Notes under the pieces: generated by a model
The model's input: only the letters and a program-made list of their open reading frames with translations
Databases searched by the model: none
What the model was told of the DNA's origin: nothing
Position numbers and translations under genes: made by a program
Origin: Sediminibacterium magnilacihabitans
GTDB taxonomy: Bacteria > Bacteroidota > Bacteroidia > Chitinophagales > Chitinophagaceae
Direction: 5' to 3'
DNA length: 64,000 nt
Assembly (NCBI GenBank): GCA_002973575.1
Contig: PVEQ01000010.1
Location: 1-64,000, forward strand
Part shown: in pieces, positions 3,606 to 49,996 of the stretch
How the letters are laid out: each line of letters opens with the position of its first letter
Numbering within the stretch: position 1 is the stretch's first letter

Positions 3606-4739
3606 TTAGGTGTTCAACGTTAATAAATTTCCCAGTTGACCGGCAAGTCGTACCAGGTTTTGATGCGTATGTTTCAATGCATCTGTTAAAGGCGATGGTT
3701 CATTTGTTATCGACAATAAAACATCGAAATATCGGTTGAGTTCCTGATCGGTGTTCAACGGCACTTTCCCTGCCATTCCTACCACCGGAATGCCTTTTGC
3801 TTTTGCCCGCACTGCAACCCCGAACGGCGCTTTGCCTTCCAGGCTCTGCTCATCGATACTGCCTTCCGCTGTGATCACAAGATCGGCTTTTGACAGGGCA
3901 TCTTCAAACCCTACCCGGTCGAGATAATAATCGATCCCATTCACCAGTTGGGCATTGAGGAACGCGAACAGTCCTGCTGCCGCTCCTCCTGCCGTGCCAC
4001 CGCCATTGATGTCATCCACTTTTTTACCCGTGTTGCGATGGATGATCGTTGCAAACTGTGTAAGGTATTTTTCAAGTATGATCAATCCTTCTGCTGTAGC
4101 GCCTTTTTGCGGACCGAAAACCCTGGCTGCCCCCTTATCACCCAATAACTTATTTTGAACATCGCACATGACAATAATTTCTGTACCCGGTATTCTCTTG
4201 TCGAGCTTGCTGGTATCGATTTCATTTAGCGTTGCCAGGTTCTCTGGGTTGGGGAACAGTTCCTCACCCGATGCATTTAAAAACCGAACCCCCAATGCAT
4301 GTAATATCCCGGCCCCGCCATCTACCGTTGCAGAGCCGCCCATGCCGATGATGATTTTCTTTACGCCTTTGTCCAACGCTGCTTTTACCTGCTCGCCTGT
4401 TCCGTAAGAAGAGGCTTTCAATGGGTTCAGGGCTGCCCGTTCCAATAAACGGATACCAGCGGCATTGGCCATTTCTATCACAGCAGTATCCTGGTTATCG
4501 ATTAGTCCGAATGAACTGTCTATGATACTTCCCAAAGCATTATGTACCCTGCCTGTTATATAAATGCCATTGCTTTGTTTGATGAGCAGCTCTCCTGTTC
4601 CATCGCCGCCATCGCCAACCGGTATTTTTTCACTGGTGAAATGCAACCGGCTGCTTTGCAATCCCATCTCAATAGCATCGGCAACACTGCCTGCATCAAG
4701 ACTGCTTTTGAAAGCGTTCGGTGAGATCAGGATATGCAT
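3606..4739 (-). CDS. Glycerate kinase (GlxK/GarK family)
   Basis: Glycerate kinase, 377 aa, the usual length of the GlxK/GarK family. It phosphorylates D-glycerate with ATP, in this family usually to 2-phosphoglycerate, feeding lower glycolysis. Recognisable blocks are SPNAFKSSLDA at the N-terminus, PVGDGGDGT near residue 41, MANAAGI near 90, IIGMGGSATVDGG near 130 and ITAEGSIDEQS near 290. The neighbours upstream are a D-2-hydroxyacid dehydrogenase (8-bp gap) and a lactate/glycolate-type permease. Together they make a pathway from an imported or oxidised two- to three-carbon hydroxy acid to phosphoglycerate, which supports the assignment. Confidence 0.92.
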   Translation of the reverse strand: MHILISPNAFKSSLDAGSVADAIEMGLQSSRLHFTSEKIPVGDGGDGTGELLIKQSNGIYITGRVHNALGSIIDSSFGLIDNQDTAVIEMANAAGIRLLERAALNPLKASSYGTGEQVKAALDKGVKKIIIGMGGSATVDGGAGILHALGVRFLNASGEELFPNPENLATLNEIDTSKLDKRIPGTEIIVMCDVQNKLLGDKGAARVFGPQKGATAEGLIILEKYLTQFATIIHRNTGKKVDDINGGGTAGGAAAGLFAFLNAQLVNGIDYYLDRVGFEDALSKADLVITAEGSIDEQSLEGKAPFGVAVRAKAKGIPVVGMAGKVPLNTDQELNRYFDVLLSITNEPSPLTDALKHTHQNLVRLAGQLGNLLTLNT

Positions 4740-40382: not shown

Positions 40383-40706
40383 ATGTATCAACAGTTTTGG
40401 ATTAAATACATACCGGTTATCAGGATATTGTTCAAGCGTACAGCTGTAGGAGACCAAATACTTGATCTTAACCGTGTTGATTTCGAACATGCAGGAATGA
40501 CCCGCAAGGCCGGATACAAGTTCGATATAGAACTGGTGAACGGAAGGGTTTCCAATCATATAGGCGGCATGCCGCTGGCTGCAGAGCTCGCCGCAATTTT
40601 ACTGGAAGACCCTGCTGTACAGATACTATTGACTGAGCATGATTTTGTTATCTCTCTGAACACGCGCTACCAACTCAGCATCAAACGGATCCGTGCTACA
40701 ACTTGA
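40383..40706 (+). CDS. Conserved-looking small protein of unknown function
   Basis: 107-aa soluble protein with ATG start at 40383. No family is recognised. It reads as a compact alpha/beta fold: aromatic N-terminus (MYQQFWIKYIPVIRILFKR), a hydrophilic centre (DLNRVDFEHAGMTRKAGYKFDIELVNGR) and a hydrophobic helix (GMPLAAELAAILLEDPAVQILL). It has no signal peptide or membrane segment. It lies between the divergent nucleoid-protein gene and the leader of the cysteine operon. A role in that operon is not supported by any motif. Confidence 0.6.
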   Translation: MYQQFWIKYIPVIRILFKRTAVGDQILDLNRVDFEHAGMTRKAGYKFDIELVNGRVSNHIGGMPLAAELAAILLEDPAVQILLTEHDFVISLNTRYQLSIKRIRATT

Positions 40707-40837
40707 AATAACAATTTGTGACATCAAGTTACGAATGCCGCAGAAACGACCGCTTGTTAGCTTTTACTGTCTCGCAAACGTTTGCCTGGTATGGCTTCCA
40801 AGGCATCTGAAAAATTTTTCAAAAAAGTCTACCAAAA

Positions 40838-40869
40838 TTGTGGGGAATTTAAATTTGCCCTTATCTTTG
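40838..40869 (+). promoter_or_regulatory. Predicted promoter of the cysteine operon
   Basis: TTG (40838-40840), a 21-bp spacer and TATCTTTG (40862-40869) match the Bacteroidota pattern TTG-N19-21-TAnnTTTG exactly. Transcription should begin around 40875, about 25 nt before the leader ORF at 40899. A second -7-like box TAAATTTG lies at 40850-40857 but has no matching -33 element. Confidence 0.65.
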
Positions 40870-40898
40870 TCCTGTCATTATCATTAACTCGATTAAAA

Positions 40899-41015
40899 AT
40901 GAAACAGGCCATCACCACTTTCGTTCAGGCAATCATGAACCTCCTCACTCCTGCCAAAGGGTTCATGTGTTGCTGTTGTTGCCCTGTACAACCCACCAGG
41001 TGTTGTAATGACTGA
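40899..41015 (+). CDS. Poly-cysteine leader peptide of the cys operon (candidate cysteine-sensing attenuator)
   Basis: A 38-codon ORF starts at the ATG at 40899 and ends with TGA at 41013-41015, 56 bp before cysH. Codons 24-28 are five Cys in a row (TGT TGC TGT TGT TGC) and codons 35-36 are Cys-Cys, so 7 of 38 residues are cysteine. The rest (KQAITTFVQAIMNLLTPAKGF, then PVQPTR) has no enzymatic look. Placed between a good promoter and the first gene of cysteine biosynthesis, it has the form of a leader peptide on which ribosomes would stall when charged Cys-tRNA is scarce. Poly-Cys upstream ORFs with that role have been reported in mycobacteria; in Bacteroidota this is inference. A small metal- or thiol-binding peptide is the alternative. 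Confidence 0.7.
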   Translation: MKQAITTFVQAIMNLLTPAKGFMCCCCCPVQPTRCCND

Positions 41016-41071
41016 TATCTCCCCTTACTTACTTACCCAGGTTTTCAGTTTCACCAATACCCGATTCTTGT

Positions 41072-41785
41072 ATGTCACATTCAACAAGTGATGCATTGGC
41101 TTCACTGCAACATAGTATCAATGGCAAAAGCATAGCAGAGGCTGTGGAAACGCTTATTGCCGCCTACCCGGGCGCTGTGACTTTTTCCACCAGCTTCAGC
41201 AATGAAGACCAGGTTATCACAGATCATATTGCGAAGAACCACCTGCCCGTTTCATTTTTCACACTCGATACGGGCCGTCTTTTTCCTGAAACATACAGTA
41301 CCTGGAGCAGGACGCTGGAGCATTATTCCATCAGCATCAAAGCCTATTATCCCAATGCGGGTGAACTGGAGACTTTCATCGAATCGAATGGCCCCAACGC
41401 TTTCTACGACTCTGTAGAGCTCCGTTCCCGCTGCTGCTTTATTCGCAAAGTGGCTCCCCTGAAAAGGGCCCTGCAAGGTAAGGCTGTATGGATCACCGGT
41501 CTGCGTGCAGAACATTCGCCCAATAGGCAAGACCTGCAGTCGCTGGAATGGGATGAAGGCAACGGAATCATCAAATTTCACCCGCTGTTACATTGGAGCA
41601 CCGAAGAGGTCAGCAACTATGTACAGCAAGCGGCCATCCCATACAACCCTTTACACGATAAAGGTTTCGTGAGCATCGGCTGTGCGCCCTGTACCAGGGC
41701 CATCCGCCCCGGCGAAGATTTCAGGGCTGGCAGGTGGTGGTGGGAAGACAGCAGTAAAAAAGAGTGCGGATTACATACACATTAA
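41072..41785 (+). CDS. cysH: Adenylyl-sulfate (APS) reductase, CysH family
   Basis: CysH reduces activated sulfate to sulfite with thioredoxin, 237 aa. The nucleotide-binding region includes VTFSTSFSNEDQVI (36-49) and the TLDTGRLFPET loop (64-74). C232 in ECGLHTH is the catalytic cysteine. CC at 121-122 (SRCCFIRKVAPL) and CAPC at 204-207 match the four-cysteine [4Fe-4S] set of APS reductases, which PAPS reductases lack. The operon has no APS kinase (cysC), in agreement with direct APS reduction. It is the first enzyme gene after the poly-Cys leader, with 18 bp to cysD. Confidence 0.93.
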   Translation: MSHSTSDALASLQHSINGKSIAEAVETLIAAYPGAVTFSTSFSNEDQVITDHIAKNHLPVSFFTLDTGRLFPETYSTWSRTLEHYSISIKAYYPNAGELETFIESNGPNAFYDSVELRSRCCFIRKVAPLKRALQGKAVWITGLRAEHSPNRQDLQSLEWDEGNGIIKFHPLLHWSTEEVSNYVQQAAIPYNPLHDKGFVSIGCAPCTRAIRPGEDFRAGRWWWEDSSKKECGLHTH

Positions 41786-41803
41786 AGAACAGAATTCAAC
41801 ATC

Positions 41804-42712
41804 ATGAGTCAGTATAAAACAGATTATTTAGATCAACTGGAGTCGGAAGCCATCCACATCATGCGTGAAGTGGCCGGTCAGTTCGAAAAACCAGCCCTGC
41901 TTTTCAGCGGCGGTAAAGATTCCATTACCCTGGTGCACCTGGCATTGAAAGCTTTTCGTCCCGGTAAACTTCCTTTCCCGCTGGTGCACATCGATACCGG
42001 CCATAATTTCCAGGAAGCCCTGGATTTCCGCGATGAACTGGCAGAGCAACTGGGAGAAAGACTCATCGTGCGTAAAGTGGAAGACACCATCAAGGCCCGT
42101 CACCTTACAGAACCCAAAGGAAAATTCGCCAGTCGTAATGCGCTGCAAACCTATACGCTGTTAGATACCATTGAAGAATTCAAGTTCGATGCCTGTATCG
42201 GAGGCGCTCGTCGCGATGAAGAGAAAGCCAGGGCCAAGGAAAGGATCTTTTCGGTGAGGGATGAATTCGGCCAGTGGGATCCTAAACGCCAGCGTCCTGA
42301 ATTGTGGAATACTTACAATGGCAGGATCAGCAAAGGAGAGAACGTAAGGGTATTCCCCATCAGTAACTGGACCGAACTCGATATCTGGAACTATATCCGG
42401 CGCGAGAAGATCGATCTGCCATCTATCTATTTCTCACATGACCGCAAAGTGCTGGAGCACGAAGGACAACTCGTTGCAATATCTGATTTTATTGAAGTAG
42501 AGCCCCATGATAAAGTATCGGTGAAGCGGGTGCGCTACCGCACGGTAGGTGACATGACCTGTACCGCCGCCGTTGAATCAAATGCTTCCTCTATCGATGA
42601 TATCATCCGTGAAATCGTTGCCACCAAAACCAGTGAGCGCGGCGAAACAAGGATAGACGACAGGGTGAGCGAAGCGGCAATGGAGGACAGGAAAAAAAAT
42701 GGTTACTTCTAA
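41804..42712 (+). CDS. cysD: Sulfate adenylyltransferase subunit 2
   Basis: CysD is the small catalytic subunit of ATP sulfurylase, which makes APS from sulfate and ATP, 302 aa. The PP-loop SGGKDS is at residues 35-40, followed by VHIDTGHNFQEALDFRD and GGARRDEEKARAKERIFS near 128, and KNGYF at the C-terminus as in other CysD proteins. It needs the GTPase CysN, encoded next with a 14-bp overlap that implies translational coupling. Confidence 0.95.
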   Translation: MSQYKTDYLDQLESEAIHIMREVAGQFEKPALLFSGGKDSITLVHLALKAFRPGKLPFPLVHIDTGHNFQEALDFRDELAEQLGERLIVRKVEDTIKARHLTEPKGKFASRNALQTYTLLDTIEEFKFDACIGGARRDEEKARAKERIFSVRDEFGQWDPKRQRPELWNTYNGRISKGENVRVFPISNWTELDIWNYIRREKIDLPSIYFSHDRKVLEHEGQLVAISDFIEVEPHDKVSVKRVRYRTVGDMTCTAAVESNASSIDDIIREIVATKTSERGETRIDDRVSEAAMEDRKKNGYF

Positions 42713-43964
42713 AAACAAACACATGGACTTATTAAGATTTATAACTGCAGGCAGTGTAGACGACGGTAAAAGCACATTGATAGGCCGTTTATTATATGAC
42801 AGCAAATCGATCATGATTGACCAGCTCGAAGCCATTGAAAAGCAAAGCAAGAACAAAGCCGATGGAGAGATAGACCTGGCTTTGCTGACCGATGGCCTGC
42901 GCGCCGAAAGAGAGCAGGGTATTACCATTGATGTGGCGTATAAATATTTCGCCACACCCAAACGCAAGTTCATCATCGCCGATGCGCCCGGCCATATCCA
43001 GTACACCCGGAACATGGTAACAGGCGCTTCCAATGCCGACCTGGCCATCATTCTCATCGATGCCCGCAATGGTGTGGTAGAGCAAACCCGCCGCCATTCC
43101 ATCATCGCTTCTTTGCTTAACATACCCCATGTGGTGGTGGCAGTGAACAAAATGGACCTGGTAAACAATTCCCAGGATGTGTACAATAACATTGTGATCG
43201 ATTACGCAGAAGTAGCCAAAACATTGGGCCTGAACGATGTTACGTATATTCCCATCAGCGCCATCAACGGCGCCAATATTGTAGAGAAAAGTGAAGACTT
43301 CCCCTGGTATGAAGGAGCATCTCTTTTACATATTCTGGAAAATGTACAGGTAGAGAACGATATCAACCATACCGATGCACGATTCCCCGTACAATTCGTG
43401 ATCCGTCCTCAAACCGATGCACTGCACGATTACCGTGGCTATGCAGGAAAGATCAGCAGCGGTGTTTACGCCAAGGGCGATAAAGTAACCGTTTTACCTT
43501 CCGGCACCACTTCTGCTATCAAAGCCATTGAAGTAGGCGGCAAAGAAGTGAAAGAAGCTTATGCTCCGCAAAGCGTTGTGCTGCACCTGGAAGACGATAT
43601 CGATATCAGCCGCGGTGATATCATCGTTAAAACAGATAACCAGCCTGCTGTTGGCAACGAGATAGAAGTATTGTTGTGTTGGATGGACCACAAACCCCTC
43701 ATCCCCGGAAATAAATACCTCCTGCAATTGAACAGCAAAACGGTTCGTAGCGTGGTGAAAGAGATCACCTACAAACTAGATGTGAACTCATTGCAGCAGG
43801 AAGCTTTCCCCGAAAAAGTAGGATTGAACGATGTGGTGAAAGCTACCATCAAAACAGCTTCGCCCATCGCTTATGACAGCTATAAAAAATTAAGAACGAA
43901 CGGAGGAGCGATATTGATAGATGAGACCAGTCATGTTACCGTTGGTGCATGCATGATCCAATAA
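42699..43964 (+). CDS. cysN: Sulfate adenylyltransferase subunit 1 (GTPase)
   Basis: CysN couples GTP hydrolysis to APS formation by CysD. The length is 421 aa from the ATG at 42699; an alternative ATG at 42723 begins at the conserved MDLLRFITAG. GTPase motifs are GSVDDGKST (18-26), DAPGH (95-99) and NKMD (150-153), followed by two EF-Tu-like beta domains. It is a little shorter than the Escherichia coli protein and has no fused APS kinase domain at its end, again consistent with an APS-dependent route. Confidence 0.95.
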   Translation: MVTSKNKHMDLLRFITAGSVDDGKSTLIGRLLYDSKSIMIDQLEAIEKQSKNKADGEIDLALLTDGLRAEREQGITIDVAYKYFATPKRKFIIADAPGHIQYTRNMVTGASNADLAIILIDARNGVVEQTRRHSIIASLLNIPHVVVAVNKMDLVNNSQDVYNNIVIDYAEVAKTLGLNDVTYIPISAINGANIVEKSEDFPWYEGASLLHILENVQVENDINHTDARFPVQFVIRPQTDALHDYRGYAGKISSGVYAKGDKVTVLPSGTTSAIKAIEVGGKEVKEAYAPQSVVLHLEDDIDISRGDIIVKTDNQPAVGNEIEVLLCWMDHKPLIPGNKYLLQLNSKTVRSVVKEITYKLDVNSLQQEAFPEKVGLNDVVKATIKTASPIAYDSYKKLRTNGGAILIDETSHVTVGACMIQ

Positions 43965-43975
43965 AATAACCCATC

Positions 43976-44809
43976 ATGACCAAACAGGATTTTGTACAGC
44001 ATTTATTCCACAAGAACAGGAAGCGCTTCAGCCGGTTTCCCGATAAGGAATTGGCCGAACGTTTTACCGATGATCTGTTCAACCTGCTTTTTGGTTCTTA
44101 TGAAGGCCGGTATGATTCTGCCGAAAAACTAACGCAGGAATACCAGGAATTGCAAAATACTTTTTCAGCTATCCTGTTTGAATTGATCAGGGATGAGCAA
44201 TTGGTGAAGCAACACACCGGGCATTTCTTTTACGAACTACCGGAACTCTACGAAGCGCTGTTACTGGATGCGGAAACAGTACTGAAGTTCGACCCGGCAG
44301 CCCAGTCCATCGAAGAAGTACTGGTGGCTTACCCGGGCTTTTATGCCACGGCTATTTATCGCATCGCACACCAGTTGCACCTGCAGGGCATCAAAACCCT
44401 GCCGCGCATTCTCTCTGAATATGCGCACAGCAAAACAGGCATCGATATCCACCCGGGCGCAGAAATAGGATCTTCTTTTGCCATCGATCACGGCACCGGT
44501 ATTGTAATCGGAGAGACCACCGTTATCGGTAACCATGTAAAGATCTACCAGGGTGTAACATTGGGCGCTTTGAATGTGGCAAAAGAACTGGCCAACAAGA
44601 AAAGACATCCTTCCATTGAAGACCATGTAATCATTTATTCCGGAGCAACCATATTGGGTGGTGAAACCGTTGTTGGCAGCGGTAGTATCATCGGCGGTAA
44701 TATCTGGCTCACCCACAGCGTGCCCGCGAATTCCGTAGTGTATCATAAAAGCGAGATACACATCAAAGGCAAAGACCCTTTTCCCGAACCTTTAAATTTT
44801 GTGATTTAA
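43976..44809 (+). CDS. cysE: Serine O-acetyltransferase
   Basis: Acetylates serine with acetyl-CoA to give O-acetylserine for cysteine synthesis, 277 aa. The N-terminal half is helical; the C-terminal half is a left-handed beta-helix with hexapeptide repeats ([27 protein letters not shown] and [13 protein letters not shown]). The catalytic His-Asp pair is in AIDHGTG and the conserved [19 protein letters not shown] block is present. It belongs to the EpsC-like branch with a longer N-terminus. It lies 11 bp after cysN. Confidence 0.93.
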
Positions 44810-44834
44810 CTCAAAACACTGTAAAAATAAAAGC

Positions 44835-45746
44835 ATGAAAGCAGCTAACATTTTAGAAACGATCGGCAATACTCCTCATGTGAGGATCAATAAATTATTC
44901 GGCAATGATCACGAAGTATGGGTGAAGCTGGAAAGAAACAACCCCGGCGCCAGCATCAAAGACAGGATCGCCCTGGCGATGATCGAAGATGCTGAAGCCA
45001 AGGGCTTGCTCAAGAAAGACAGTGTGATTATTGAACCTACGAGCGGTAATACCGGCATCGGCCTGGCGCTGGTAGCAGCTGTGAAAGGATACAAGATTAT
45101 CCTGGTAATGCCTGAGAGTATGAGCATCGAGCGCAGAAGACTGATGGCGCTCTACGGTGCAGAGTTTGTATTAACGCCCCGCGAAAAAGGTATGAAGGGC
45201 GCTGTTGATAAAGCCAATGAGCTGGCTGCGGAAACACCCAACTCCTGGGTACCGCAGCAATTCGATAACCCTGCCAATACAGAGGTTCATCGCAGAACGA
45301 CTGCAAAAGAAATTCTCGCAGATTTTCCCGACGGACTGGACTATATCATTACAGGTGTTGGAACCGGCGGTCATATCACCGGTGTAGCGGAAGTGTTGAA
45401 AAAACAATTCCCTAACCTGAAAGTGTTTGCAGTAGAACCGGAATTATCGCCTGTATTAAGTGGCGGCGCTCCTGGTCCGCACCCCTTACAAGGCCTGGGC
45501 GCCAACTTCATTCCTTCTATCCTGAACAGGGATATACTCGATGGTATCATCACCGTAGGTAAGGATGAAGCATTCAGTTATGCACAGCGTGCTGCGAAAG
45601 AAGAAGGATTGTTCATCGGTGTTTCATCGGGCGCTGCGCTTGCAGGCGTTGCAAAGAAACTCTCTGAAATACCCAAAGGATCAAAAATATTAACCTTCAA
45701 CTACGATACCGGCGAAAGATATCTTTCTGTTGAAGGATTGTTCTAA
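44835..45746 (+). CDS. cysK: Cysteine synthase (O-acetylserine sulfhydrylase)
   Basis: PLP-dependent enzyme joining sulfide to O-acetylserine, 303 aa. The PLP lysine is K42 in [11 protein letters not shown]. The substrate loop is [12 protein letters not shown] (67-78) and the phosphate-binding loop is [10 protein letters not shown] near residue 175. [18 protein letters not shown] and GMKGA follow the CysK rather than CysM pattern, although the length is CysM-like. It lies 25 bp after cysE; the two enzymes form a complex in other bacteria. Confidence 0.93.
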
Positions 45747-45756
45747 AACCAGTTGT

Positions 45757-46614
45757 ATGAGCTATCAACCCACCATAGGCAAAGTGATATTGGCGGCAGC
45801 CGGACCGGGAGACCCGGAACTGGTGACCCTGAAGACTGTTCGTTTTTTGCAACAGGCAGATGTGGTACTGGCCGACAGGCTCGTGAGTGAAGACATCATC
45901 AAAGCGCATGTGAAGCCTGGAGCAGAAGTAATATATGTGGGTAAACAATGCCGCAGGGGGATCTCTACTCCGCAACTTACCATCAACGAATTATTGGTAC
46001 ACCATGCTGGTCGTAATCAGCTGGTAGTTCGGCTCAAAGGCGGCGATACCGGGATATTTTCCAATATCCTGGATGAGCTGGAAACACTGGTAGCCCATCA
46101 GATCCCCTATGAAATCGTTCCCGGGGTTACTGCTGCACTCGGTGCATCGGCTTATGCCGGTATTCCGCTTACGGCAAGAGGATATGCCACTTCTGTTCGC
46201 TTCCTCACTTATTACAAATCAGATGTAGTAACGGATGAAGAGTGGAAAGAGCTGGCGGAAACAAATGATACGCTGGTATGGTATATGTCATCCGAAACAC
46301 TCGATACCGTTGTTGAAAAACTTACACAACACCAGATCAGCGCCGATAAATTGCTGGCAGTTGCCGAACAGGCAACAACGCCATTGCAAAACATCCACAC
46401 TTGCAGCTTGTATGATTATGAAAAACAACTGAAAGGAAAGGCGTTCTTATCGCCTTCCCTGGTGATCATTGGCAAAGTGGTGGCGCTTCACGAGCAGTTT
46501 GCCTGGATAGCCAACAGTTACAGCAAAGAACATTATTTCAAACCACTGACAGGTCGTGTAAGCATCATACACGACGATGCAGCAAAAGATAATAAACATG
46601 TTAACAGGGCCTAA
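45757..46614 (+). CDS. cobA: Uroporphyrinogen-III C-methyltransferase
   Basis: SUMT, which methylates uroporphyrinogen III twice to precorrin-2, the precursor of the sirohaem needed by sulfite reductase. It has 285 aa from the ATG at 45757. Motifs are AAGPGDPELVTLKTVRFL at the start, VLADRLVS, VKPGAEVIYVGKQC, RLKGGDTGIFSNILDELE and EIVPGVTAALGASAYAGIPLT near residue 117. It has no fused dehydrogenase/ferrochelatase half (as in CysG), so those steps need genes outside the operon. It lies 10 bp after cysK and overlaps cysJ by 17 bp. Confidence 0.93.
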   Translation: MSYQPTIGKVILAAAGPGDPELVTLKTVRFLQQADVVLADRLVSEDIIKAHVKPGAEVIYVGKQCRRGISTPQLTINELLVHHAGRNQLVVRLKGGDTGIFSNILDELETLVAHQIPYEIVPGVTAALGASAYAGIPLTARGYATSVRFLTYYKSDVVTDEEWKELAETNDTLVWYMSSETLDTVVEKLTQHQISADKLLAVAEQATTPLQNIHTCSLYDYEKQLKGKAFLSPSLVIIGKVVALHEQFAWIANSYSKEHYFKPLTGRVSIIHDDAAKDNKHVNRA

Positions 46615-48310
46615 ATTCAAATTACTGACAGATCTGATTAGCCAGTCAAGCAAAGAGGAGCTGATTTGGATCAACGGCTATTTGTCTGCATTGCTGGGGC
46701 AACAACCACAGCCTGCTACCGCCGTTGCGGCTCCTGTAAGTGTTGCTGCGGCCACACCTAAGAAGATCACCATTACCTATGGCACCGAAACCGGTAACTC
46801 TAAAAAGCTGGCCACGGAATTTGCCGCCAAGGCAAAAAAGAATGGGATACAAACCAAACTGGTGGGGCTTGACCAATATCGCCTCACCGATCTTCCAAAA
46901 GAAGAGTATTTTATTACCGTGATCAGCACACAGGGTGAAGGTGAGCCCCCTATTGCAGCACAAAAATTTTACGACCATATCCACAACAATGGTTTTAAAA
47001 TACCACAATTGAAATTTGGTGTACTGGCGCTGGGCGATACGGCTTATCCGCAGTTTTGCAAGGCAGGAGAAGATGTAGACAGCCAGTTGCAAAAGCTGGG
47101 CGGCAACCGCATTGTTCCGCTCCAAAAATGCGACCTCGATTATGAAGAGCTCGCGCATAGCTGGTTTTCAGATTTACTCAAATCATTCGATAATGCAGGC
47201 GCTCCGGCCATTGTAGCGGCACCGGTTGTTGCTGATCAGAAAAAACCGGCCGGTAAAAAAACATATACCGGCACTATTCTCTCCAGTATTAATCTCAATG
47301 CCAACCAGTCTGACAAGAAAACATACCATATTGAAATAGCAGCAGAAGGCGTAGAATATCTCCCCGGCGATTCCATTGCCATCATACCGGAAAATCCGGC
47401 TGCGATCGTGGAAGAGATCCTGTCCCTCAGTCAAACAGATCCGGCAAAAAGCATTTTTTGGAAAAATGAAACGTTTACGATCAAAAACCTGCTCACACAG
47501 AAACTGAATATCACTTACCTGTTGGAGAAATCTGTTAAACAATATGCAAGCATTGTTGGTCAGGATATCCCGGCAGCAAGGGTAGGTTTGCTGGAACTGT
47601 TGCAGAAATATCCTTTGAAAGATGCAACGCAGTTCGAAGCCATTGTACTCGGACTCACCCCCACTGCTCCACGCATTTATAACATCGCTTCTTCACCCGC
47701 CGCACACGAAGGTGAAGTGCACATTACTGTGTTGCAGGATGTGTTTACGGTAAACGGAGAAAAACAGTATGGACTGGGTACCTCATTCCTGGAAAGCAAA
47801 AAGCCAGATGATGAGATCAGTTTCTTCATTCAACCCAACAAACGCTTCCGCTTACCCGCAGCAGATAAAGATGTGATCATGATCGGACCCGGAACAGGTA
47901 TTGCGCCGTTCAGGTCGTTCACTGCAGAACGCGATGCAACAGGCGCCGCGGGACGCAACTGGTTGTTCTTTGGCGAAGGCAGTTTTACAGACGATTTTCT
48001 TTACCAGACCGAATGGCAAAACTGGTTCGATACCGATGTGCTCACCAAAGTGAGCCTGGCTTTTCATAAAGACAGTGCAGACAAACCATTCGTACACCAC
48101 CGGATACTGCAACATGGCGCAGAGTTGTTTGAATGGATGCAGAACGGAGCTTATCTCTATCTCTGCGGTGAGAAAGACCCGATGAGCAAGGAGGTGGAAG
48201 CCGCGCTGCTAACCGTTATTGAGCGGGAAGGAAAATTGTCTGCTGAAGATGCAGCAAAATATTTCGAGCAATTAAAAACAGAAGGACGCTACGCAAAAGA
48301 CGTGTATTGA
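46598..48310 (+). CDS. cysJ: Sulfite reductase flavoprotein subunit
   Basis: Carries electrons from NADPH through FAD and FMN to the haem subunit, 570 aa from the ATG at 46598. An Ala/Pro-rich linker (about residues 28-50) precedes the flavodoxin domain with ITYGTETGNSKKLATEF and STQGEGEPPIAAQKFYDHI. The FAD site is RIYNIASSPAAHEGEVHITV, the NADPH site IGPGTGIAPFRSF, and the protein ends in GRYAKDVY as expected for CysJ. It overlaps cobA by 17 bp and is followed by cysI after 18 bp. Confidence 0.94.
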   Translation: MLTGPKFKLLTDLISQSSKEELIWINGYLSALLGQQPQPATAVAAPVSVAAATPKKITITYGTETGNSKKLATEFAAKAKKNGIQTKLVGLDQYRLTDLPKEEYFITVISTQGEGEPPIAAQKFYDHIHNNGFKIPQLKFGVLALGDTAYPQFCKAGEDVDSQLQKLGGNRIVPLQKCDLDYEELAHSWFSDLLKSFDNAGAPAIVAAPVVADQKKPAGKKTYTGTILSSINLNANQSDKKTYHIEIAAEGVEYLPGDSIAIIPENPAAIVEEILSLSQTDPAKSIFWKNETFTIKNLLTQKLNITYLLEKSVKQYASIVGQDIPAARVGLLELLQKYPLKDATQFEAIVLGLTPTAPRIYNIASSPAAHEGEVHITVLQDVFTVNGEKQYGLGTSFLESKKPDDEISFFIQPNKRFRLPAADKDVIMIGPGTGIAPFRSFTAERDATGAAGRNWLFFGEGSFTDDFLYQTEWQNWFDTDVLTKVSLAFHKDSADKPFVHHRILQHGAELFEWMQNGAYLYLCGEKDPMSKEVEAALLTVIEREGKLSAEDAAKYFEQLKTEGRYAKDVY

Positions 48311-48328
48311 TCCTATAAAACAGGTATT

Positions 48329-49996
48329 ATGAGCAAGCAGGAAAAATTATCAGCCATTGAACACATCAAAACAGCCAGCCATGGCTTGCGGGGCACACTG
48401 AAAGAAAGTTTGCAGGACGAGATCACAGGCGCTATCCGCGAACAGGATCAGGCATTGGTGAAGTTCCACGGCATGTACTTGCAGGATGACCGCGATTTGC
48501 GCGAAGAGCGGGCCGCCAAGAAGCTGGATAAATTGTATTCCTTCATGGTCAGGCTGCGCATTCCAGGTGGCCTCATGACACCTGAACAATGGATCACGGC
48601 ACACCATGTAGCGGGAGAATATACTACCGGTGTGATCAAGATCACTACCCGCCAAACCATTCAACTGCATGGTATCCTGAAAAACCATGTGAAGCCTACA
48701 CATCAAAACTTCAGCAAAGTAAAACTCGATTCCATTGCCGCTTGCGGCGATGTGAACAGGAATGTGGCCTGTACGAGTCACCCCGCCGAATCGCTTTTGC
48801 ATAAAAGTATTCATGCGTATGCCGACAGGATCAGCCGGCTATTACTGCCCAAAACAAGGGCATTTTACGAAGTATGGCTCGACGAAGAAAAGATTGCCGA
48901 AAATACAGAGACCGATCCTTTATACCAGGATCGCTACCTGCCCCGGAAATTCAAAATAGGCATTTGTATTCCGCCCAACAACGATGTAGATGTACTGGCC
49001 AATGACCTGGGATTGATTGCTATTATTGAAGATGGCAAACTGAAAGGATTCAATATTGCCGTAGGTGGCGGTTTATCTACTACGCACGGCAACGCCGATA
49101 CCTATGCGCGACTGGCCACTGTTATTGGTTTTACCGACACCGAAGAGAAGACCCTCAAGGCTGTATATGAAACCCTTACTATCCAACGCGATTATGGTAA
49201 CAGGAGCGACCGGAAACTGGCGCGCATGAAATACACGCTCGACAATATGGGTGTGGATGCCTTCCGCAAAGAACTGGAAAAACGTTGCGGCTTCCCTATC
49301 GAAGATCCAAAGCCTTACGAGTTTACACAAAGAAAAGACCGTTATGGCTGGTTCAAAGACTATGAAAGCAACTGGCACTATACTTTATTCATCGAGAACG
49401 GAAGGGTTACCGATACCGAGCAACTGCCATTGAAAACCGCATTGCTGGAGATCGCCCAAACCGGTAAAGCCAATTTTCGTTTTACCAGCAACCAGAACCT
49501 GATCTTAAGCGATATCAAAGACAGTGATAAAAAGATCGTGGAAGACCTGTTGAATCAATTTGGTATCATCCAGGCTACCGATGCCGCATCTGCCCTGCGT
49601 AAGAATGCGATCTCCTGCGTGGCTTTGCCTACCTGTCCGCTTGCACTGGCCGAAGCCCAGCGCTACCTGCCCCAACTCATTGATCAGATCGAACCGCTTT
49701 TGCAGCAATACGGTTTATCGGATGATGATATCGTCTTGCGCATGACTGGTTGTCCCAATGGTTGCGCAAGACCTTATGCCGCAGAGATCGGACTCATTGG
49801 AACCGCTCCCGGTCTTTATAACCTGCACATTGGCGGCGACCGCTACGGTCAGCGGTTGAATAAAAAATACAAAGAGAACCTCAATGAAAAAGCCATCCTG
49901 CAGGAATTGGATCACCTGTTCAGCGATTACAAAACCGGCAAAATAGCCGATGAGCATTTCGGCGATTATGTGTTTAGAAAACAACTAGCCAGTTAA
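48329..49996 (+). CDS. cysI: Sulfite reductase haemoprotein subunit
   Basis: Reduces sulfite to sulfide using a sirohaem and a [4Fe-4S] cluster, 555 aa. The four cluster and haem cysteines are C430, C436 (CVALPTCPLALAEAQR) and C475, C479 (MTGCPNGCARPYAAEIG). The N-terminal half-repeat has VRLRIPGGLMTPEQW and ITTRQTIQLHGI. It is the last gene of the operon. A strong terminator starts just past its stop. Confidence 0.95.
   Translation: MSKQEKLSAIEHIKTASHGLRGTLKESLQDEITGAIREQDQALVKFHGMYLQDDRDLREERAAKKLDKLYSFMVRLRIPGGLMTPEQWITAHHVAGEYTTGVIKITTRQTIQLHGILKNHVKPTHQNFSKVKLDSIAACGDVNRNVACTSHPAESLLHKSIHAYADRISRLLLPKTRAFYEVWLDEEKIAENTETDPLYQDRYLPRKFKIGICIPPNNDVDVLANDLGLIAIIEDGKLKGFNIAVGGGLSTTHGNADTYARLATVIGFTDTEEKTLKAVYETLTIQRDYGNRSDRKLARMKYTLDNMGVDAFRKELEKRCGFPIEDPKPYEFTQRKDRYGWFKDYESNWHYTLFIENGRVTDTEQLPLKTALLEIAQTGKANFRFTSNQNLILSDIKDSDKKIVEDLLNQFGIIQATDAASALRKNAISCVALPTCPLALAEAQRYLPQLIDQIEPLLQQYGLSDDDIVLRMTGCPNGCARPYAAEIGLIGTAPGLYNLHIGGDRYGQRLNKKYKENLNEKAILQELDHLFSDYKTGKIADEHFGDYVFRKQLAS

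Follow-up and report, generated by a model that had tools for sequence, protein, structure and literature searches.

A conserved cysteine-run ORF ahead of the sulfate-assimilation operon of Sediminibacterium magnilacihabitans, very probably a cysteine-sensing leader

Why should a sulfate-assimilation operon be preceded by a tiny ORF in which five cysteine codons stand in a row? The question is raised by a 64,000-nt stretch of contig PVEQ01000010.1 of Sediminibacterium magnilacihabitans (Chitinophagaceae), here called the window, for which a preliminary description had proposed a leader-peptide sensor of the end product of the operon. The observation itself, a Cys-run ORF ahead of cysH, is real: the coordinates and the translation of a 38-codon ORF with CCCCC and CC, whose stop lies exactly 56 nt before the cysH start, are confirmed. 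We think that a leader sensing charged tRNA-Cys is by far the best reading of this ORF, and we give a probability of about 0.75 to its being a ribosome-mediated attenuator responsive to cysteine, whichever its output. The elements around the ORF are the following:

40838-40869, forward strand: predicted promoter (TTG at 40838, 21 nt, TATCTTTG at 40862-40869)
40899-41015, forward strand: leader ORF (uORF), 38 codons and stop TGA, translation MKQAITTFVQAIMNLLTPAKGFMCCCCCPVQPTRCCND, presumed start
40968-40982, forward strand: five consecutive Cys codons within the leader ORF, the putative control codons
41001-41006, forward strand: second Cys-Cys pair, two codons before the leader ORF stop

The predicted promoter is of the Bacteroidota type, and its parts (TTG, 21 nt, TATCTTTG) are present as had been claimed. 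The frame of the leader ORF is open further upstream, with 77 codons if counted from the TTG at 40782, and its start is placed at 40899 because of the predicted promoter; the end of the TATCTTTG box is 29 nt from this ATG. A sigma-70-type scan gave one site against 0.9 expected, and thus adds nothing on the promoter. No Rfam family matched the window with covariance models, and no NCBIfam family matched the leader peptide at E up to 1. Just 5' of the leader, a 107-aa ORF (40383-40706, forward strand) has no Pfam or NCBIfam match at E 0.001.

Behind the ORF, cysH and seven further cysteine-pathway genes had been announced, and all eight sulfate-assimilation genes are identified by profile matches:

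41072-41785, forward strand: cysH, (phospho)adenylyl-sulfate (APS/PAPS) reductase, first gene of the eight
41804-42712, forward strand: cysD (TIGR02039)
42699-43964, forward strand: cysN (TIGR02034)
43976-44809, forward strand: cysE-like serine O-acetyltransferase (TIGR01172, 162 bits, below the cut-off of 211)
44835-45746, forward strand: cysK (TIGR01139)
45730-46614, forward strand: cobA/cysG-type uroporphyrinogen-III C-methyltransferase, for siroheme (TIGR01469; the listed TTG start overlaps cysK)
46577-48310, forward strand: cysJ-type sulfite reductase flavoprotein (TIGR01931, 534 bits, below the cut-off of 668)
48329-49996, forward strand: cysI, sulfite reductase hemoprotein (TIGR02041)

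There is no separate APS kinase among the eight genes of 41072-49996, and the cysH of the window scores above the cut-off of the APS-reductase subfamily model, so that sulfate may be reduced at the APS level in this bacterium, the kinase having been considered among the eight operon genes only.

A single Cys run is weak evidence, because TGYTGYTGYTGY, that is, four Cys codons, is not rare in the 4.04 Mb of the own genome, where it has 90 matches against 16 in a backwards control. In 464 kb of this genome, outside which cysS falls, cysH is the only one among 360 genes with a short upstream ORF carrying a Cys run of at least three. For comparison between genomes, cysH loci were drawn from genus and family, from a named genome collection and from further stretches; at the family level these are the best 90 of about 126 matches (30 and the next 60), the 36 weakest being left out. 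Among 118 loci, 42 (L075-L077, L079-L081 and L083-L118, mostly Proteobacteria and Chloroflexi) were scanned and then excluded; none of their listed peptides has four consecutive Cys and one, in L097, has three. L070 was excluded for its too short upstream sequence, and seven duplicates were removed from the set of distinct loci.

The strict rule used for this comparison accepts a run if it belongs to a short ORF that starts with ATG and stops 15-150 nt ahead of cysH; it was applied likewise to 20 rounds of shuffles. By it, a Cys run of at least three is present at 65 of 127 distinct related cysH loci (shuffle mean 0.4, maximum 3) and a run of at least four at 43 of the 127, against 0 in shuffles. 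Leu comes next after Cys with nine loci, then Val with four and Ala with one, and on the reverse strand Cys is outside the six most frequent amino acids. These counts of Cys runs, 65 of 127 loci against 0.4 with Leu next at nine, speak for reading the window ORF as a probable cysteine sensor. A loose rule, which asks of the last 25 codons either three consecutive Cys or a Cys pair with four Cys in total, finds a leader in 73 of 128 distinct loci, and the 55 of 128 without one by this rule count against the leader reading. The Cys-rich ORF, on whose conservation at homologous cysH loci the earlier proposal turned, is thus present there, and its Cys run recurs while the remaining peptide differs.

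Of the 73 loci with a leader, seven do not enter the statistics of gap and structure: L019, for its 27-nt gap, and six others that a hand-made list marks as terminator type, as having a long gap or as doubtful. Clustering of the remaining 66 gave 55 non-redundant loci. In 37 of them the last Cys codon directly adjoins the stop; it is one codon away in 11, two in six and six in one. The distance is thus no more than two codons in 54 of 55, while the search had required only a cluster in the last 25 codons. Between leader stop and cysH the median gap is 52 nt (10th-90th percentile 44-74). Counted from the first in-frame ATG, the leaders range from 13 aa to 80 aa and their N-termini are unlike; for Cys, TGT is used 290 times and TGC 128 times. 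Compared with the window, the near-identical relative L002 has two changes in the ORF, both at third codon positions (one changes TGT to TGC), and one in the gap. Seven Cys codons do not vary, even at third positions, among four Rufibacter loci and one Sabulibacter locus, where one Ser codon and the codon before the stop do; this invariance fits a codon constraint and would be compatible with selection at the protein or the DNA level. A TAnnTTTG box is found at -260 to -90 in 58 of 72 leader loci, against 10.5 in shuffles. The distance from this predicted promoter box to the ATG is 4-47 nt in 47 of 55 loci with a box, and 21-47 nt in 41 of these; judged from the predicted promoters, the leader ORFs of the window and of the cysH class are predicted not to be leaderless.

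Another box, CTAY...RGTAGACTA, lies near the cys promoter at -26 to -190 of cysH, for example in L005, L021, L036, L043 and L150, and is possibly the operator of some regulator. As a replacement of the leader it was rejected, since it is found in 10 leader and six leaderless loci (16 of 127) and so co-occurs with the leader.

The same element is also found before a second gene. A search of seven genomes for four Cys codons followed by a stop gave 43 places, 11 of them ending in TGG, which is no stop, and 32 in true stops; 31 of the latter were read and one was the already known L006. Twelve of the 32 are inside an ATG-started short ORF: six are cysH leaders, L006 included, two precede, by 70 and 80 nt, a gene of about 500 aa, in one case in the genome of the window, and four are without an assigned Cys gene, namely L301, L322, L291 (antisense in a gene) and L329 (overlapping a long ORF). 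L301 (G043:C11) is a leader-like ORF that ends in SSCYCCCCC and a stop, behind a CTAT...GTAGATTA box. The gene of about 500 aa is cysS, for cysteinyl-tRNA synthetase (TIGR00435, 451 bits), and its leader in the own genome is the following:

G000:C7:10098-10136 (L333, L339): second poly-Cys leader of the own genome, MIRIYPYCCCCC and a stop, 80 nt before cysS

In a sample made of the best 30 of 114 family genomes with a match, plus L314, cysS leaders are present in 19 of 31 loci, or 17 of 29 if L339 and L314, whose leaders had led to them, are set aside; the absence of a leader by the criteria in the other 12 of 31 speaks against the leader reading. Of the 19 leaders, 18 have their last Cys codon directly at the stop, and the gap to cysS ranges over 52-80 nt. 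The ATG lies 4-10 nt behind a predicted TAnnTTyG box in 15 of 19, a spacing at which these leader ORFs, like that of the own genome, are probably leaderless. A second TAnnTTyG box within the cysS gap, in eight of 19 loci against 1.2 in shuffles (L342, L343, L349 and L352 among them), could possibly yield a leader-free cysS mRNA. One would expect a sensor of charged tRNA-Cys to act on cysS as well, a gene that had not been chosen beforehand. We propose that the same element would control cysS and thus form, with the operon, a small cysteine regulon read by ribosomes. With a conserved Cys-rich ORF, a recurrent run and the same element before cysS, the leader-peptide sensor of the preliminary description gains support at the level of sequence, and this real and conserved ORF is very probably a cysteine-sensing leader.

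Two other readings would do without sensing. The ORF might make a functional Cys-rich peptide, metal-binding, modified or signaling, whose production together with the operon is incidental. Its high Cys content would suit such a role, as would a sub-threshold match of one of three leaders scanned to a bacteriocin precursor family (E 0.11, 12 bits against a cut-off of 33), but what recurs is a Cys run beside the stop, in peptides of 13 aa to 80 aa with unlike N-termini, the window peptide has no NCBIfam match at E up to 1, and the same run at cysS suits sensing and not a shared peptide; we regard this explanation as highly improbable. The DNA might otherwise be kept for a reason such as repeated TTG promoter elements or a TGY microsatellite, the reading frame being incidental. 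TGYTGY repeats are indeed frequent in the genome, Cys codons could double as a -33 element where a second TAnnTTyG box stands in the cysS gap (the eight of 19 loci against 1.2), and the seven Cys codons shared by the five related Rufibacter and Sabulibacter loci are identical at third positions. However, other frames would read Leu or Val/Ala, and the counts observed are Cys 65, Leu 9, Val 4 and Ala 1; moreover, stop codons stand directly behind the Cys run, TGT (290) and TGC (128) are both in use, and boxes in the cysH gaps are near expectation (5 against 2.8). An incidental frame is disfavored, to the point of being scarcely credible.

If the ORF is a cysteine-sensing leader, it would be translated by ribosomes soon after transcription start. 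With plentiful charged tRNA-Cys, these would pass the Cys codons, terminate and leave, after which the terminal Cys codons could pair with the RNA just behind the stop and the C-rich gap would be free of ribosomes, leading to an early stop of transcription, most likely by Rho. With scarce charged tRNA-Cys, a ribosome held on the terminal Cys codons would cover the 5' side of the gap and keep the hairpin from forming, with expression of the operon as the outcome. We infer sensing and direction of control from the codons together with the way in which leader attenuators are established to work. Two features behind the Cys codons of the window are of interest for the output stage:

40999-41061, forward strand: predicted stop-spanning stem-loop, the Cys-Cys codons pairing with CAAUACC about 10 nt before cysH
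41016-41071, forward strand: C-rich, G-poor gap, possible Rho loading region (C minus G 0.23)

A C minus G value of 0.23 is reached by 3% of 133 upstream regions of the own genome. Gaps of the cysH class contain C at 0.248 and G at 0.110, and this difference of 0.138 compares with 0.025 in the same 133 regions (p 1.7e-12), a background drawn from one genome while the leader gaps come from many, and with 0.006 in 23 leaderless cysH loci chosen by eye as non-coding upstream (p 1.8e-7). In leader loci the excess of C over G begins at the stop and extends about 60 nt into cysH; leaderless loci have no steady bias. The cysS gaps behave alike, with 0.130 against 0.037 (p 2.8e-4). A tendency of the terminal Cys codons to pair with the bases just behind the stop is seen at class level, with z -0.79 ± 0.19 for cysH (0 of 200 permutations as good) and -1.31 ± 0.20 for cysS, against 0.03 ± 0.09 for ordinary gene stops (n = 150). 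The cysS hairpins are not better than those obtained by swapping arms between loci (39 of 200 permutations), and a longest-stem test gives p 0.004 for cysH and a non-significant 0.46 for cysS. In the window the compact hairpin of the family is weak (-3.0 kcal/mol), and folding of the whole leader region gives z -1.89, with five of 200 shuffles as good. A second, trp-like switch was tried and rejected: over the stretch that begins 23 nt behind the stop and reaches 60 nt into the gene, the arm behind the stop has no second partner (z +0.3).

The statement that no obvious intrinsic terminator lies between the ORF and cysH holds, no terminator-like site being found in 40800-41300 of the window. 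A lax scan gave weak sites in eight of 55 cysH gaps (3.4 in shuffles) and in one of 19 cysS gaps (1.4 in shuffles).

The main rival for the output is translational attenuation, in which, with cysteine available, the freed Cys-codon segment would pair with the cysH start region and block initiation, a pairing that the stalled ribosome would prevent in the other state. Some single loci suit it, since the Cys run covers the start in L004, L158, L005 and L028, and in the window the longer predicted stem joins the Cys-Cys codons to bases about 10 nt ahead of cysH, which keeps translational control plausible there; a stalled ribosome would also cut the opening cost in the window from 8.5 to 5.9 kcal/mol. 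The mycobacterial poly-Cys leader, moreover, has reportedly been tested and is said to work by freeing the ribosome-binding site. Across loci, the real gap is a modestly better partner for the Cys segment than its shuffled versions (duplex z -0.54 ± 0.16, paired t 2.6 and 2.3), and k-mers complementary to Cys codons are raised in the gap (18 of 55 against 8.4), but a reversed k-mer control, in sets that overlap, is equally raised (16 of 55 against 5.8). The gain from stalling over the 55 cysH loci is neither above that in shuffled gaps (p 0.094) nor above that of a ribosome placed earlier (mean gain 1.14 against 1.72, p 0.22), in cysS it has p 0.47, and the Cys segment pairs less with the coding start of cysH than shuffles do (t -3.0). 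As a universal mechanism, pairing of Cys codons with the cysH start was rejected, the signals from RNAduplex, base-pair probabilities, k-mers and opening energies being weak or non-significant; as the explanation of the window, translational attenuation is plausible, though less likely than not.

For the window class we favor ribosome-gated Rho termination, because the excess of C over G is found in the gap at both targets, cysH and cysS. Rho is present and essential in Bacteroides thetaiotaomicron according to a passage of PMC13269538. Against Rho termination, YC dimers, the step preferred by Rho, are not above the composition of the gaps, and a stalled ribosome would cover only the first nucleotides of the gap; blocking of Rho in this way assumes a gap too short for Rho. 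About half of our expectation for the output stage goes to Rho, a distinctly smaller though substantial share to translation initiation, and a small remainder to something else.

Beyond the family, cysH was found in 157 of 346 genomes of the class, and 60 loci, hand-chosen across families and cut around cysH, contain 12 poly-Cys leaders in 11 loci. The genes behind them are for siroheme methyltransferase, sulfite reductase, APS reductase and, once, homoserine dehydrogenase (nine identified by Pfam, L252 and L288 by their cysH match, and L233 by likeness to L230); since these loci were cut around cysH, sulfur genes are likely neighbors anyway. Nine of the 12 have no terminator within 150 nt. 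Upstream of 2643-3890 in L250, a leader MCCCCCMCMC stands 189 nt ahead of a homoserine dehydrogenase gene. A looser look at 28 loci found Met-Cys leaders (MMMMCC and similar) in L071 (Flavobacteriaceae) and L239, and, in two further loci, Met/Cys-rich leader ORFs ahead of cysH and about 10 nt behind a SAM riboswitch (RF00162), possibly a tandem element with two inputs:

L240:7644-7843: SAM riboswitch and leader
L245, around 4085-4179, minus strand: SAM riboswitch and leader

Upstream of cysH in L239, L071 and L064 there are two successive Cys-containing leaders with terminator-like hairpins, Met and Cys being mixed. The Bacteroid-trp leader RF01692 was found in L239. An Rfam search of 13 loci gave no match that overlaps a leader.

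Ten other Bacteroidota leaders, with Cys or with Met and Cys, have a hairpin and a T run 19-60 nt behind the stop, having been selected because a terminator was seen or suspected. Their best antiterminator arm begins 10-19 nt behind the last Cys codons; in five of the ten it is a 7-8 nt arm, starting 10-13 nt behind the Cys codons, which at most three of 200 shuffles reach, and in the other five it is indistinguishable from shuffles. Equilibrium folding of nine terminator leaders with a stalled ribosome gave no switching in most (in L073 the wrong T run was involved) and told less than the comparison of arm complementarity. The suggestion that control acts on translation or through Rho therefore stands for the terminator-free class of the window and does not extend to these ten leaders. 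Tentatively, at somewhat less than even odds, we suggest a ribosome-read cysteine regulon spread over the phylum, comprising sulfate assimilation and cysS, in which two output stages would have evolved: intrinsic terminators, in some cases with Met and Cys codons, besides leaders behind SAM riboswitches; and a terminator-free form, with a hairpin across the stop codon next to a Rho-loading gap.

If the sensing reading is true, a leader that counts codons would explain, at least in part, how sulfate assimilation and cysS are matched to the cysteine supply, many unannotated tiny ORFs would gain a role that can be tested, and poly-Cys leaders would exist in at least three bacterial groups. Having leaders with and without a terminator within one phylum would moreover allow for a direct comparison of how the output of an attenuator changes.

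Actinobacterial poly-Cys leaders occur at several cysteine loci per genome. They differ from the leaders described here in phylum, in that the window ORF is predicted not to be leaderless (the cysS ORFs probably are), in that cysS is a target here, and in the stop-spanning hairpin. Masking of the start site, by which the mycobacterial leader is said to work, is not supported family-wide here and is plausible in single loci. Passages of Seliverstov 2005 (PMC1262725) report poly-Cys leader ORFs ahead of cys operons in Mycobacterium, Propionibacterium and Bifidobacterium, and share with our case a short ORF with a Cys run near its stop ahead of a cys operon, the lack of a terminator and suggested Rho sites, there polypyrimidine stretches in a prediction that the authors call weak. 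The mycobacterial leader work (Canestrari 2020) is cited in PMC13236596 and PMC9031893. The motif uORFC-8-2 likewise places Cys codons in a uORF upstream of cysS, and a passage of PMC8632094 reads it as ribosome-mediated attenuation and describes it for Rhodobacterales only. It has tandem Cys codons at positions 14-15, an intrinsic terminator and two stems, whereas in the window class the run is at the stop and a clear terminator is lacking. For Bacteroidota, the preliminary description knew of no such leader. This agrees, for cysteine, with the literature searched, mostly outside subscription journals, in which none was found; leader-peptide attenuation as such is known there, being stated generally for amino-acid operons of Flavobacterium in section 19 of PMC9723704, and the Bacteroid-trp leader RF01692 is likewise a peptide-leader RNA of this phylum, though with Trp codons and trp genes.

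With the classical trp-type attenuator the window ORF has in common control codons for the product amino acid of the operon, whereas the intrinsic terminator of that system is absent in the window. In E. coli tnaC, a ribosome that is stalled on its own peptide with tryptophan, where the short ORF ends, decides Rho termination in the leader. The mechanism proposed for the window would resemble tnaC, which is named in a passage of PMC1262725, in that a ribosome at the ORF end gates Rho, and would differ from it in that the ribosome is held by codon starvation.
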